DNA of 63,833 nucleotides from Myxococcales bacterium (GTDB lineage Bacteria; Myxococcota; B64-G9), in contig JAAZNF010000011.1 in the NCBI GenBank assembly GCA_012798435.1, positions 1-63,833 of the forward strand, given 5' to 3'. Below are positions 6,277-11,682 of the stretch, piece by piece. How positions within the stretch are numbered: position 1 is the stretch's first letter; every line of letters starts with the position of its first letter. The notes under the pieces are model-generated. The model was not told where the DNA came from and did no database searches. It worked only from the letters and a program-made list of their open reading frames with translations. The translations under genes were made by a program, and so were the position numbers.

Positions 6277-7266
6277 TCAGAAAGATGCCGCCAGGCCGAA
6301 GCCGGCTCCTTCCGGCAGCAGGAGGGGGGTCAACGAGAACGAGGCCGGGGAAGAGGCGCGACTCGGCTCCTTCGCAGGGACGAGCCAGAAACACACCAGC
6401 CCGCCGCCGAGGAGTAGCGCACCCGCGCCCAGGGCCGAAAGACCTCCGACCCAGTAGTCGTGCGCCTTGCCATCCTCGGCGCGGACGATCCGCTGCAGGC
6501 GCTCCATCTCCTCGATGGTGGTGGCTGCCAGCCATTCCCGGTAGGCAGTGTCGCGACGCTCCTGGGCGCTTTTCATCGGGCCGAGGAGAAGCGCCATGCC
6601 CGTGGCCAACGCCCCGGCCGCGACGCCGGTGGAGACGCCGCCGAGCCAGAGCAGGGTCGTGCGCGTACTCTGCGTATCGGTCCGGCGTGCCGTGAGCGCT
6701 TCCTCGGCCGGGTTGGGCACGGGCTTCGAAGCGGGGTCCAGGACAGCGGGGGAGGGCCGGGTCGGCGGGGCCGGGGAATGTTGTGGAGCCGCCTTCGAGC
6801 CGGGCTGGGGAGGAGGAGCAACGGTCCGGGAGACTCCGAGCGCGAGCAGCGCCCGCCGAAGATCGGCCCCGAGCGAGCTTTGCTCCTGAAAGCCGCGCAT
6901 CGGCACGGTGGTGGCGAGCTCGAACACGGTGGCCTGGGTACGGGCGTCGAACCCGCGCATGGAGATCTTGAGCAAGGGACCGAGCCGCAGCACCTCGATG
7001 ACCAGCACGCCGGTCCGTTGCGCGCTCTCGGCGTCCCGTTTCAGGCACGCGGCCGTCACGCAGCAGTCACCACTCTCCGCCTGTATTTGATCGGCGGGCC
7101 CGCGCTCTCGGTCGAGCAGCGAATGCAGCCTCTTGCGGATCGGCTCTGTCTGATCGTCCGCAAGACCCTTGAAGGTGAGACACGCCCGGATGCGCCGACC
7201 CTCTCCAGCCCGGCACGGAACGGCCACCGCCGCCAGCATGGTGAAAAGGAGAATCCCGCGGAGCAT
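6277..7266 (-). CDS. exported two-helix membrane protein, partner of the cyclase gene
   Basis: A 329-residue protein of unknown family. A signal peptide (about 1-20) is followed by a mixed alpha/beta domain (25-140). Its logic (E-V-L-R-L-G-P-L-L-K-I-S-M-R-G-F-D-A) resembles periplasmic FlgO/CsgG-like folds. A Pro-rich linker (150-185) leads to two hydrophobic segments (about 203-228 and 273-298) separated by a charged helical stretch. It begins 9 nt after the pseudokinase-cyclase stop codon and has no Shine-Dalgarno, so coupled translation is likely. A role in the same signalling unit is inference from position. Confidence 0.6.
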   Translation of the reverse strand: MLRGILLFTMLAAVAVPCRAGEGRRIRACLTFKGLADDQTEPIRKRLHSLLDRERGPADQIQAESGDCCVTAACLKRDAESAQRTGVLVIEVLRLGPLLKISMRGFDARTQATVFELATTVPMRGFQEQSSLGADLRRALLALGVSRTVAPPPQPGSKAAPQHSPAPPTRPSPAVLDPASKPVPNPAEEALTARRTDTQSTRTTLLWLGGVSTGVAAGALATGMALLLGPMKSAQERRDTAYREWLAATTIEEMERLQRIVRAEDGKAHDYWVGGLSALGAGALLLGGGLVCFWLVPAKEPSRASSPASFSLTPLLLPEGAGFGLAASF

Positions 7267-7275
7267 GAAGGAACA

Positions 7276-9843
7276 CTAGCGAATCTTCTTGAGGATTTCA
7301 AAGGCGCGGTTTAGCTGGCGGTTGGCCTCGACGAAGTTCTGGCCGTTCATGGCCCGGTCCACTTCCTGGAGCACCTGTGCGATGTCCGTCAGTGCGGCCG
7401 TGCGCTCGGTCGAGCCGGCGGACTCGCTCAACCGGTCGAAGGTCCGGTTGAAGCGCAGCAGCTTCTTCTCCACGAAATCCTTCCCCACCTGGACGGAATC
7501 CACCAGCGCCTGCACCTTGAGGTAGGTGGTCAGAAGCTCCTTGTCTTTCGAGTTCTTTTCGAGCTGCGGAAGGCGTTGGATCTCCTTGTCCAGATCGGGC
7601 AGGTCGCCCGGGATGATGCCCTTGCGCCGGATGGACTGCAGCAGCCGGCGGCGGGCTTCTTCGGGCCTCAGCCGTGGGGGTTTATCGTTCTTCGGGGGTT
7701 TGAGTTCGGCCGGAGGCGGCTGAACGCTGTCCGCAGGTTCTGCCAGTCCGGCGTCCTCGGGCGCTGGCGCTCCGGCATCCTCGGGCTCTGGTGCTCCGGT
7801 GTCCGGCGAGACGTTGGGGCGCCGGGGTTCGCTTGCCGCTGGAGACGCCGGCTCGGACGCGGGCGGGTTGTGCGGCGGCTCCGGCTCGGCGGGTTGGAGG
7901 CTGGCGAAGACCAGCACCACGACCCAGACCAGGGCGCCGGCGAGCAGCAGCGAGAGCACCAGCACGGCGCGCCCCATCCGGGGCTTCTCTCGCGCCGGTT
8001 CTGTACGGGGCTTGAGTGGGGACGCTTGTCCCGGCGCGGCGGCCGGCGGGGCCGGTTCCGCGATGTAGATGGTCTTGACGTCCGAGCCGATCGCCGGCGT
8101 CTGGCCGGACTGAGAGCCCGGTTCGTCGGGCAGGGCCTCGCCGGGGAGCGTCACGGCCTGGATCTCATCCGAGAGGCTGCGCCGTTGGGGCGGTGCGGGG
8201 GGCCGCAGGCTCTCCGACAAGTCGGGCAGATCGAACGGGAACGCTCCCGACCCGGGCTTGCCTTCGAAGGCCGGGAGGCTCACCGTCGGGATGTGCGCCT
8301 CCTGCGGGCTGGCCTTGGGCGCTGCGGCCGCCATCTCCCGCGTCGCCGGGCCTTCCTGCGCCGAGACGTCGCGACGCTCCTGCGGCAGTGGACGATCGGG
8401 GTCCCAGCCCACCAGGAAGAGGTCGAACTCCTCCTCCTTCCCCTTGAGAGTGGTGCGGGCGAAGAAGACCATCGGCGCATGCATCGCCTTGAGCTGGGCG
8501 CGGGTCGCCGCCGATATCATGATCTGCTCGGCGCCGGCCTTGGAACAGACGCGCGCGGCCACGTTCACCGCGTCGCCGAAGACGTCCTGGGCCTCGACGA
8601 TGCACTGTCCGCTGTTGAGGCCGATGCGGATCTGGAGCCGCTCACCGGCGTCGGGGAGGGCGCGGTTGTGCTGCTGTAGCGCCCGCTGCATGTTCACCGC
8701 GGCGCGCACGCCCTCGTCGGCGGTGTCGAAGGTGGCCAGGATGGCGTCCCCGATGGTCTTGACCACGGTGCCGCGCTGCGCCTGGATGAGCGGGAACAGG
8801 AGCTCGTTGTGCCTCTGGATGCGGCGCCGGCCGGCCATGTCGCCGTGCGTGTCGAAGTAGGCGGTGATGCCCACGATGTCGCTCATCAGGATGGTCTTGT
8901 CGCGCCAGGGGATCTCCTGGGTGTGGGCGTCGCGCTCGTCGAGCACATCCTCACGCTCGGCAATCGACGCCGCCGTCGGGATGGCTGGGGAGGTCGGGAG
9001 GCTTTTTGCGGCCGCTGTTTCCGGACTTGCGGAAAGCAGTTCTTTGAGCAGGGCAGTGGCGTCGGGCTGGCGCCGGCCCGGGTCGGAGGAGAGGGCGCGA
9101 ACCACCAGTCGCTCGAGTTCCGGTGATATGTCGGGGTTGAAAAGCCTGGGCGGGACCAGTTTTCCGGAGAGCAGCGCCTTGTAAGCCTCAGCGGGGTTGC
9201 GACCGGGGTAGGGAGGCTTTCCGGTGATGCAGCGGTACAGCATTGCGCCCAGCGCGAAGACGTCGCCGCGGGCGCTCGGAAGCTTGGTGTTGGCGACCTC
9301 GGGCGCGAGCCACAGCAGCAGTTCGAGCGGGTGGAGATCCCCCTGGACCAGCCGCAGGCGGGTCCCACCCAGGCCGAAATCCGTGATGAGCGGCTGGTCA
9401 CCCGAGCGCACCGTGACGCTTGCGGGTGTGAGCGCGCCATGCGAGAGGCCGGACTGGTGGATGGTCGAAAGCGCCTCGCACGATCGAGACAGGATGCGCA
9501 GGTAGCGCTCGGGAGGGAGGGTGGATTCCGCCAGCATGCGGGCCAGCGAGGGCCCGCTCGCGTGTTCCAGGGTGAGGAAGGTGTGCTCTCCCTCGTCGTG
9601 GAGATCGAAGATTCGCGCAAGATTCGGATGGAAGACCGAACGCGCTCTGAGCAGCTCCTGGCCCAGCGCGGCCACGGCGGGGCCAAGGGCGAGCACGGCC
9701 GGAAACAGGCGCAACGAGACTTGCACCCCGAAGCGCGTGTCCTCGGCCAGGTAGGTTCGGCCCAACGAGTCCTGTCCCGTCGGTTCCACGATGAGAAAGC
9801 GCCCCAGTTTCTGCCCTGGAACGAGTGGGGGCGAATCAGACAT
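7276..9843 (-). CDS. pseudokinase-adenylate cyclase fusion with periplasmic helical domain
   Basis: An 855-residue multidomain protein. Residues 12-272 have the Ser/Thr kinase fold but look inactive: the VAIK lysine is Arg45, and the HRDxKxxN loop reads H135-G-A-L-T-P-A-S, so the catalytic Asp, Lys and Asn are absent. D155-F-G and A180-P-E remain. Residues 314-480 are a class III nucleotidyl cyclase with metal Asp in S-D322-I-V-G, K362-T-I-G-D366, D420 in Q-D-V-F-G, and V-N-V-A-A-R. The Lys/Asp pair predicts ATP as substrate. A linker leads to one transmembrane helix (625-649), a Pro/Glu/Ala region, and a helical C-terminal domain outside the membrane. GAGGTG precedes the ATG. Confidence 0.9.
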   Translation of the reverse strand: MSDSPPLVPGQKLGRFLIVEPTGQDSLGRTYLAEDTRFGVQVSLRLFPAVLALGPAVAALGQELLRARSVFHPNLARIFDLHDEGEHTFLTLEHASGPSLARMLAESTLPPERYLRILSRSCEALSTIHQSGLSHGALTPASVTVRSGDQPLITDFGLGGTRLRLVQGDLHPLELLLWLAPEVANTKLPSARGDVFALGAMLYRCITGKPPYPGRNPAEAYKALLSGKLVPPRLFNPDISPELERLVVRALSSDPGRRQPDATALLKELLSASPETAAAKSLPTSPAIPTAASIAEREDVLDERDAHTQEIPWRDKTILMSDIVGITAYFDTHGDMAGRRRIQRHNELLFPLIQAQRGTVVKTIGDAILATFDTADEGVRAAVNMQRALQQHNRALPDAGERLQIRIGLNSGQCIVEAQDVFGDAVNVAARVCSKAGAEQIMISAATRAQLKAMHAPMVFFARTTLKGKEEEFDLFLVGWDPDRPLPQERRDVSAQEGPATREMAAAAPKASPQEAHIPTVSLPAFEGKPGSGAFPFDLPDLSESLRPPAPPQRRSLSDEIQAVTLPGEALPDEPGSQSGQTPAIGSDVKTIYIAEPAPPAAAPGQASPLKPRTEPAREKPRMGRAVLVLSLLLAGALVWVVVLVFASLQPAEPEPPHNPPASEPASPAASEPRRPNVSPDTGAPEPEDAGAPAPEDAGLAEPADSVQPPPAELKPPKNDKPPRLRPEEARRRLLQSIRRKGIIPGDLPDLDKEIQRLPQLEKNSKDKELLTTYLKVQALVDSVQVGKDFVEKKLLRFNRTFDRLSESAGSTERTAALTDIAQVLQEVDRAMNGQNFVEANRQLNRAFEILKKIR

Positions 9844-9957: not shown

Positions 9958-11682
9958 GTGAGAGTTGCGATTCTGATTTCGAGTGTGAGTTGGGCTTTGC
10001 TCCTTGGCGGAGGCTGCTATCGTCCGCTCGATGGCGACATGCGTTGCCATCCGAAGGCCTGCGGGATCCTGCCCGAGAGCGGCGTCAACTGCGGCGCCTG
10101 CCAGGGGGCGACTTCCATTTGCATCGATAACCAGTGTCGTGACGCCTGCGCCGGTTTCGAATGCGGCGCCCCACCCGAGTACCCTGCCCTGGACTGCGGC
10201 TCCTGTTCCGCGGGTGGAAGCGTGCGTTGCGTCCAGAACCGCTGCCAGGATGTGTGCGCGAATCTCCAGTGCGGCGAGCCGCCCGGCTGGCCGGGCGTGA
10301 GCTGCGGCACCTGCCAGGGGTCGCAACAATGCACCGGCAATCAGTGCGGTGACGCCTGCGCGGACAATCGCTGTGGCGCCCTGCCCGGGCCGCCGCCGGT
10401 GGACTGCGGCGAGTGCGCCTCCGGGCTGCCCTGCCAGCCCGACGGCCGCTGCCCGGCGGCGCTCGGGCGGTTGGTGATCGACGGCAACACCTGCACCTTG
10501 TCCGACTCTCCTTGTGATTCCGCCCATGTGGAAAGCCGCGGCCCGTCCCTGTGGATGCTCAAGACCGCGGAGCCGTTTTCCGAGGTGGTGATCCGTGGAA
10601 ATGCCGTCCTCTCGGCCGCTGGTCTCCAGCCCGATGGGCAGGGAGGGTACGCTGGCGGGCGCCTGATCCTCCGTTCCCAGGAAAGCGTAACGGTCGAGGC
10701 GGGCAGCGGCATCGTCATGAGCGGGCAAGGGTGGGGCGGTGGTGGCGGCGGAGGAGGGCAGCAGTATTGTGACTCCCAGGCTCGCTGCAAACCAGGCCCC
10801 GGGGGAGGCGTGGGCTCTAGCTGGGTCGCCGGCACCAAAGGGGAAGACGGTGATGCCGGGCCGATGTGCATGCGCTACACGTCGGACACGGTCGGTGGTG
10901 GCACCGGCGGCACGGGTGGCGGCTTTGGAGGCCAACCAGGTGTGTCCGGCGGTGGCTGTCCCAGTCGATGTGGCGGAACGCCTGATCCCCCCGATGCCGG
11001 CGCCGGCGGCGCCGGTGGAGGGCCCTTTGGCGGCGCGGGTGGTGTTGACCGTGGGTTCGCCAACGCTTGCAGCACGGATTTGTGCTGCAACGCGATTGCG
11101 CGAGACTGCATCCCCGATCCGCAGGGAGGAGACCCGGCGCTGGATCCGCCCTGGCCGGCAGAGGGTGGCCATCGCGGTGGTTACGCGACCCCCGAGAACA
11201 ATGGCGACACGACGGTCGATGAGAGCGTCCTGATCGGATCCGGTGGCGGCGGGGGCGCCGGCGGAGCCAGGAGCAGTTCCTGGTGCTGCGGCGGCGGCGA
11301 CGGCGGCCCGGGGGGCGTGGTGGGTGGCCGTGGCCGGGTAGGTTGCGGGGGAGGAGGGGGGGGTGGGGGCGGAGCGGCCGGCGGGGGCGCCATCGAGATC
11401 TGGGCCAAGAACATTCAGATCGCAGGGGAAATCGCGGCCGATGGAATGGGCGAGGCCCGCCTGGGCGGCGGATACGGCGCAGGGGGCGGCATCTTGCTCC
11501 GAGCCAAGAACTCGCTCGACCTCCACGCGGCCCGGATTCATAGCATGGGCGGAAGCGGGGACGGCACCGGCACCCGGCTCAACGGGGGCACGGTCAAACT
11601 CTTCTACCGCAACCTGGAAGGCTCGCTCCCGGTCGATCTCGAGAATGCCTGCGGCAGGCTTTATCAGTCCGTGCTCCCCTAG
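9958..11682 (+). CDS. Cys-repeat / Gly-rich surface lipoprotein
   Basis: A 574-residue protein. The frame is open upstream, but codons before 9958 run antisense through the cyclase gene and its promoter. GTG 9958 gives a hydrophobic signal ending L-L-L-G-G-G-C, a loose lipobox. Four tandem Cys-rich repeats of about 35 residues follow (C-G-x-P-P-x-x-P-x-x-x-C-G-x-C ... N-x-C-x-D-x-C, about 25-160). A beta-rich domain comes next, then very Gly-rich runs (about 255-500), and an ending like the glycine-rich autotransported proteins of myxobacteria. No enzyme motif is seen. It ends in a 4-bp CTAG overlap with the convergent gene. Confidence 0.75.
   Translation: MRVAILISSVSWALLLGGGCYRPLDGDMRCHPKACGILPESGVNCGACQGATSICIDNQCRDACAGFECGAPPEYPALDCGSCSAGGSVRCVQNRCQDVCANLQCGEPPGWPGVSCGTCQGSQQCTGNQCGDACADNRCGALPGPPPVDCGECASGLPCQPDGRCPAALGRLVIDGNTCTLSDSPCDSAHVESRGPSLWMLKTAEPFSEVVIRGNAVLSAAGLQPDGQGGYAGGRLILRSQESVTVEAGSGIVMSGQGWGGGGGGGGQQYCDSQARCKPGPGGGVGSSWVAGTKGEDGDAGPMCMRYTSDTVGGGTGGTGGGFGGQPGVSGGGCPSRCGGTPDPPDAGAGGAGGGPFGGAGGVDRGFANACSTDLCCNAIARDCIPDPQGGDPALDPPWPAEGGHRGGYATPENNGDTTVDESVLIGSGGGGGAGGARSSSWCCGGGDGGPGGVVGGRGRVGCGGGGGGGGGAAGGGAIEIWAKNIQIAGEIAADGMGEARLGGGYGAGGGILLRAKNSLDLHAARIHSMGGSGDGTGTRLNGGTVKLFYRNLEGSLPVDLENACGRLYQSVLP

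Follow-up and report, generated by a model that had tools for sequence, protein, structure and literature searches.

What does a kinase domain that appears to have lost its catalytic residues do when it is fused to a cyclase that has kept its own? The question is raised by P0001, a protein encoded in the window, by which we mean the whole 63,833-nucleotide stretch of Myxococcota DNA analysed here. The stronger finding of our analysis is a family of fused kinase-cyclases to which P0001 belongs, in which either of the two enzymes can die, as judged from its residues, and which mostly carries an unnamed envelope domain.

Domain layout and catalytic residues of P0001

The features are listed below by their position in the window, with strand and basis.

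7276-9843 (-): P0001, an 855-aa pseudokinase, cyclase, TM and helical domain protein; open reading frame without internal stop, and Pfam
9022-9819 (-): Hanks-type kinase fold, aa 9-274, catalytically degenerate; family HMM, pLDDT mostly ~90 or more
9760-9777 (-): G-loop G23-Q-D-S-L-G28, Asp25 replacing the second Gly; residue reading
9709-9711 (-): R45 at the β3 (VAIK) Lys position; residue reading
9418-9441 (-): catalytic loop HGALTPAS, aa 135-142, without Asp, Lys and Asn; residue reading
9373-9381 (-): DFG, aa 155-157, kept; residue reading
9298-9306 (-): APE, aa 180-182, kept; residue reading
8908-9021 (-): kinase-to-cyclase linker, 38 aa, low confidence, no S-helix; core 283-309 with pLDDT <50
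8398-8907 (-): class III nucleotide cyclase domain, aa 313-482; D322, K362, D366, D420, N427 and R431 intact
7975-8397 (-): cyclase-to-membrane linker, about 140 aa, disordered, 18% Pro; pLDDT and composition
7900-7974 (-): single transmembrane helix, aa 624-648, N-in; hydrophobicity, flanking charge and model
7279-7665 (-): C-terminal helical envelope domain, aa 727-855, KGIIxGD ... ANxxLNRxF; without a Pfam family
6277-7266 (-): partner gene, 9 nt downstream of P0001; homologues beside relatives
9958-11682 (+): divergent gene whose product is a predicted lipoprotein rich in Cys (lipobox LGGGC); L040 has a homologue, 41% identical, in the same divergent placement

The kinase and cyclase domains are not chance assignments, because PF00069 matches aa 61-259 (E 6e-19, 68.8 bits against a cut-off of 31.7) and PF00211 matches aa 317-475 (E 4e-19, 69.3 bits against a cut-off of 21.9) in Pfam. 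The kinase profile, together with a Foldseek match to PknB (E 8e-17), identifies a Hanks-type fold, and the nearest kinases by sequence and by solved fold (Foldseek) are PknB/PknA. The sequence-only reading had called this domain a pseudokinase. Direct reading confirmed the residues on which that call was based, namely R45, the loop H135-G-A-L-T-P-A-S142 standing where HRDxKPxN is expected, and the retained DFG and APE motifs; it added D25 in the G-loop, a loss that had been missed. Four nucleotide or catalytic positions (the G-loop Gly, the β3 Lys, the HRD Asp and the Asn) are thus lost together. Where an active Hanks-type Ser/Thr kinase has its catalytic residues, P0001 has R45, A137 and S142, with D155 alone present. 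Also kept are αC E63, αF D194 and R258; indeed, E63, H135, F156, P181, E182, D194 and R258 are invariant in alignment A1, six of whose ten rows are members without the HRD Asp. The earlier claim that Asp, Lys and Asn have all gone from the catalytic loop stands as a description, but the Lys cannot serve as a mark of a pseudokinase. Its loss is uninformative because it is common in this genome, where ∼30 of the 44 kinases that we fetched as background have another residue, mostly Ser. The HRD Asp, whose loss is unusual, is missing in 5/44 kinases of the same background. Two more likely pseudokinases are encoded in this genome, at L164:2149-3981 (+), with HGGLEPAN/GIG, and L173:1356-3566 (+), with HRAVCPEN/GFG.

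The cyclase domain keeps the metal ligands D322 and D366 and the transition-state residues N427 and R431. The GTP-selecting residues of receptor guanylate cyclases are absent, and in their place is the adenine pair K362/D420, which aligns with K101/D157 of Ma1120, a cyclase whose guanylate cyclase activity was raised by joint replacement of the two residues (PMC4215837). The metal aspartates and the ATP-selecting pair had been proposed from the sequence and were found as described, so that a degenerate kinase does lie beside a cyclase whose set of ATP-type catalytic residues is complete. P0001 is therefore predicted, from these residues, to be a membrane-anchored enzyme making the messenger cAMP. 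The genome of the window holds 17 cNMP-binding matches above the Pfam cut-off.

The sole hydrophobic helix lies at residues ∼624-648, after the kinase and the cyclase, and both catalytic-type domains are N-terminal to the membrane segment, as had been claimed. Its flanking charges are +3/-3, and the predicted topology is therefore N-in/C-out. The structure model, which is of a monomer and leaves dimer arrangement outside its reach, consists of two well-folded cytoplasmic domains with a low-confidence linker between them, about 130 disordered residues (pLDDT about 30-38 across most of the cyclase-to-membrane linker), the transmembrane helix, a second disordered segment and, at the C-terminus, a helical region. 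The proposed location of a helical C-terminal domain outside the inner membrane is accordingly upheld as a prediction.

Reciprocal loss in the kinase-cyclase family

Relatives were found by searching with a cyclase fragment. The sequence-only reading had suggested looking for the same domain order in Myxococcota, and it is indeed present in further genomes, both of the window's own family and of several other families of the phylum. We compared 15 kinase-cyclase members, the window's included, membership being defined by the presence of both domains. The HRD Asp is absent in seven of them, and in all seven the six checked cyclase residues are intact. The kinase triad is present in the remaining eight, of which two have lost cyclase residues with kinase motifs intact and six keep both centres; no member has lost both, an absence that is within chance expectation at these numbers (p 0.47). 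The loops without Asp read HGALTPAS in the window protein, HRGLTPSN in L039 and L040 (both of which keep the β3 Lys, the G-loop and the Asn), HRNLKPSK in L044, HGNLKPSK in L046 and, in two proteins of L041, HGALRPEA (577 aa) and HRGLRPAV (1199 aa).

The two members with the opposite pattern have intact kinase motifs. In L055 the adenine Asp is replaced by Gly and the transition-state Arg by Gln. In L037 (506 aa, no TM helix) both metal aspartates are Glu, and the cyclase has further changes of the adenine Asp to Gln, Asn to Arg and Arg to Gln. A reading in which all members have an intact cyclase is ruled out by these two proteins. Loss can affect either catalytic centre, since L055 and L037 mirror the members without the HRD Asp. 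All three states occur together in the genome G006: kinase lost in L040, both kept in L042 and cyclase lost in L037. The gene at L205:2944-4464 (+) is the same as that in L037 and has partner and lipoprotein-like genes nearby.

Loss of the HRD Asp is enriched in the family relative to the other kinases of the window genome (7/15 versus 5/44, Fisher p 0.007) and relative to cyclase-free kinases bearing the C-terminal domain of P0001 (7/15 versus 0/11, p 0.010), in tests that count related sequences as independent. Loss of the G-loop Gly tracks that of the Asp as a trend (4/7 versus 1/8, p 0.12).

In a tree built leaving out the catalytic kinase columns, the members without the Asp form two groups, and the window's group is closer to the canonical L042, L055 and L037 than to the second of these groups. 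A minimum of two changes follows, and two losses of the HRD Asp are the most parsimonious history on this tree; with these members constrained to one clade, a single loss is not rejected (AU p 0.051). On a fixed topology the kinase:cyclase branch ratio is 1.82 in lineages without the Asp versus 1.14 in the others, and by bootstrap the first exceeds the second 1.61-fold (1.28-2.03), the kinase diverging faster. The window branch has a kinase:cyclase ratio of 3.0 (1.95-5.4, bootstrap), and L037 and L055 lean the opposite way (0.78 and 0.60). The family probably descends from a kinase-cyclase in which both enzymes were active and attached to this type of sensor.

The C-terminal envelope domain and its neighbours

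The C-terminal domain matched no Pfam family, and its model (single sequence, pLDDT 80) gave no PDB match below E 0.001. Of 193 Myxococcota genomes, 32 contain it according to a profile built from seven copies, with the motif KGIIxGD...FVxxKLxRFN...ANxxLNRxF (window 7279-7665 (-), L185-L188, L191 and L193-L204). It is an unnamed Myxococcota module, new here. Besides kinase-cyclases, it occurs on kinases with intact motifs, mostly after a predicted TM helix, and on predicted lipoproteins whose genes immediately follow those of HAMP cyclases (L196, same genome as the window). Such lipoproteins also lie beside cyclases in L194, L197, L199 and L202. The TM-HAMP-cyclase-envelope domain fusion at L195:2565-4952 (-) is a one-chain form of the pair of HAMP cyclase and lipoprotein genes.

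The partner gene (6277-7266) encodes a protein with a signal-like hydrophobic N-terminus, an envelope domain and, close to the C-terminus, a pair of hydrophobic segments; it has no Pfam match. Comparison of gene order shows that this neighbour is conserved: homologues immediately follow the relative's gene in L040 and L042, adjoin a kinase bearing the C-terminal domain in L055, and lie next to that domain in L189 and near the L037 gene in L205, with weak matches in L186 and L188. Proteins of similar layout without a profile match follow kinases in L185 and L187 and a kinase-cyclase in L043. The members without the C-terminal domain (L041, L044 and L046) have another neighbour in common, weakly SprT-like in L044.

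Proposed mechanism, alternatives and known systems

We consider that P0001 is probably a membrane-tethered, clustering-driven class III adenylate cyclase. Its N-terminal kinase domain would have lost phosphorylation, the fold being kept as a regulatory or dimerization scaffold. Beyond the inner membrane, the C-terminal helical domain and the envelope protein encoded downstream would detect the input; binding there would gather receptor monomers, and the cytoplasmic cyclase domains, on flexible linkers, would then pair and produce cAMP, the pseudokinase fold helping or restraining this pairing. The window's lineage would have retained the cAMP output and a sister lineage the kinase. Class III cyclases function as dimers, and clustering-driven pairing of the cyclase domains is the simplest fit to the structure model. 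Linkers across the family measure 22-93 aa between kinase and cyclase and 49-227 aa between cyclase and TM helix, the latter rich in disorder-promoting residues. A rigid signal from the membrane to the cyclase is unlikely because of this long, disordered segment, and clustering, a step that we infer, is likelier than a rigid transmembrane switch.

The kinase might instead be a role-less relic of an active kinase-cyclase, the cyclase alone being the output. Its accelerated divergence, threefold on the window branch, would suit such a relic and by itself could reflect slow, role-less decay; relatives do retain intact kinase motifs, and cyclases of the same sequence stretch exist without a kinase (e.g. 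L140, 287 aa). We nevertheless find this account unlikely. The modelled kinase domain is complete, without large gaps and confidently folded, and the rows of A1 without the Asp keep the spine His and Phe, the αC Glu, APE, the αF Asp and the Arg. All such members also retain the domain, but we gave this argument no weight because it is partly circular, membership having required both domains. Kinases without the HRD Asp can retain some activity, and the DFG Asp still present in P0001 counts against full loss of kinase function. A weak or altered transferase activity that relies on DFG and further residues would moreover be compatible with the retained DFG and APE, with the β3 Lys, G-loop and Asn that accompany HRGLTPSN in L039 and L040, and with the ATP modelled in DYD, a degenerate bacterial family with a β3 Arg, in a 2025 review (PMC12599244). 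In P0001, however, all four of the G-loop Gly, β3 Lys, HRD Asp and Asn are gone, which makes an atypical active enzyme very improbable.

The remaining alternative is allostery as in receptor guanylate cyclases, in which the pseudokinase would bind ATP and a conformational change would reach the cyclase through a rigid dimerization helix. The kinase-then-cyclase order and the retained DFG Asp are consistent with it, and Foldseek aligns the P0001 model with GC-A (9bco) over both domains. The rmsd of that match is 25 Å, however, which indicates no common arrangement; the 38-aa linker is non-helical with a core pLDDT <50, the G-loop Gly, β3 Lys and catalytic-loop Asn have gone, and the TM helix is on the opposite side of the cyclase, 144 residues off. 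We regard such allostery as distinctly unlikely.

Beyond the clustering-driven cyclase that we favour for P0001, we tentatively raise the possibility of a Myxococcota envelope-sensing module, made up of the unnamed helical domain and the envelope partner, with reciprocal enzyme death. Lineages that lost the kinase would signal through cAMP and those that lost the cyclase through phosphorylation, and the dead domain would regulate the living one, convergent with the animal receptor guanylate cyclases. The members form a natural series in which to ask how an enzyme domain that has died serves the living one fused to it. Animal receptor cyclases show one end state; this family offers three states (both domains intact, dead kinase with live cyclase, and the converse), all within one genome, and the step from catalyst to scaffold becomes testable both ways within one family. 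The common envelope domain points to an undescribed sensor for both phosphorylation and cAMP signalling.

We found no description of the pseudokinase-cyclase-TM-envelope domain architecture in the open-access literature. A reverse-order paralogue (own genome C35, L049; also L050-L054 and L056) resembles P0001 in having both domains and one TM helix and in occurring in the same genomes. It differs in that the cyclase precedes the kinase and the HRD Asp is kept in all checked except L056, and it has no match to the C-terminal domain. The copy at L049:4579-7977 (-) encodes ∼1100 aa, keeps the HRD Asp and is found in most genomes of the window's family. The TOMM kinase/cyclase fusion TIGR03903 likewise has the kinase first, and its profile positions 34-443 are matched by aa 69-459; P0001 is not a member, because the whole-protein score is 64.6 against a cut-off of 705.75. 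PknB-type transmembrane Ser/Thr kinases share with P0001 a kinase, one TM helix and an extracytoplasmic C-terminal domain, whereas P0001 has lost the catalytic residues, has a cyclase between kinase and TM helix and ends in an unnamed helical domain rather than PASTA (NF033483, 113.5 bits against a cut-off of 450). The bacterial Ser/Thr pseudokinase families reviewed in 2025 (ActPs1-3, GLW, CP1, DYD and DLHK) are, like P0001, degenerate Hanks-type kinases, several of them membrane-associated; the text of that review nowhere uses the term 'cyclase' (PMC12599244).

The likeness to receptor guanylate cyclases put forward in the sequence-only reading survives in part. GC-A/NPR1 is, like P0001, a single-pass protein with a pseudokinase directly before a class III cyclase. 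Receptor guanylate cyclases are ordered ectodomain-TM-pseudokinase-dimerization domain-cyclase (PMC10400071), with an S-helix following the kinase domain (PMC1592074). P0001, in contrast, has its TM helix (624-648) after both enzymes, an inverted membrane order of pseudokinase-cyclase-TM-envelope domain, and disordered linkers, that between pseudokinase and cyclase being mostly coil without an S-helix or dimerization helix; its adenine-type K/D pair and a kinase nearest PknB/PknA also set it apart. The comparison is thus a partial functional analogy and not one of membership.
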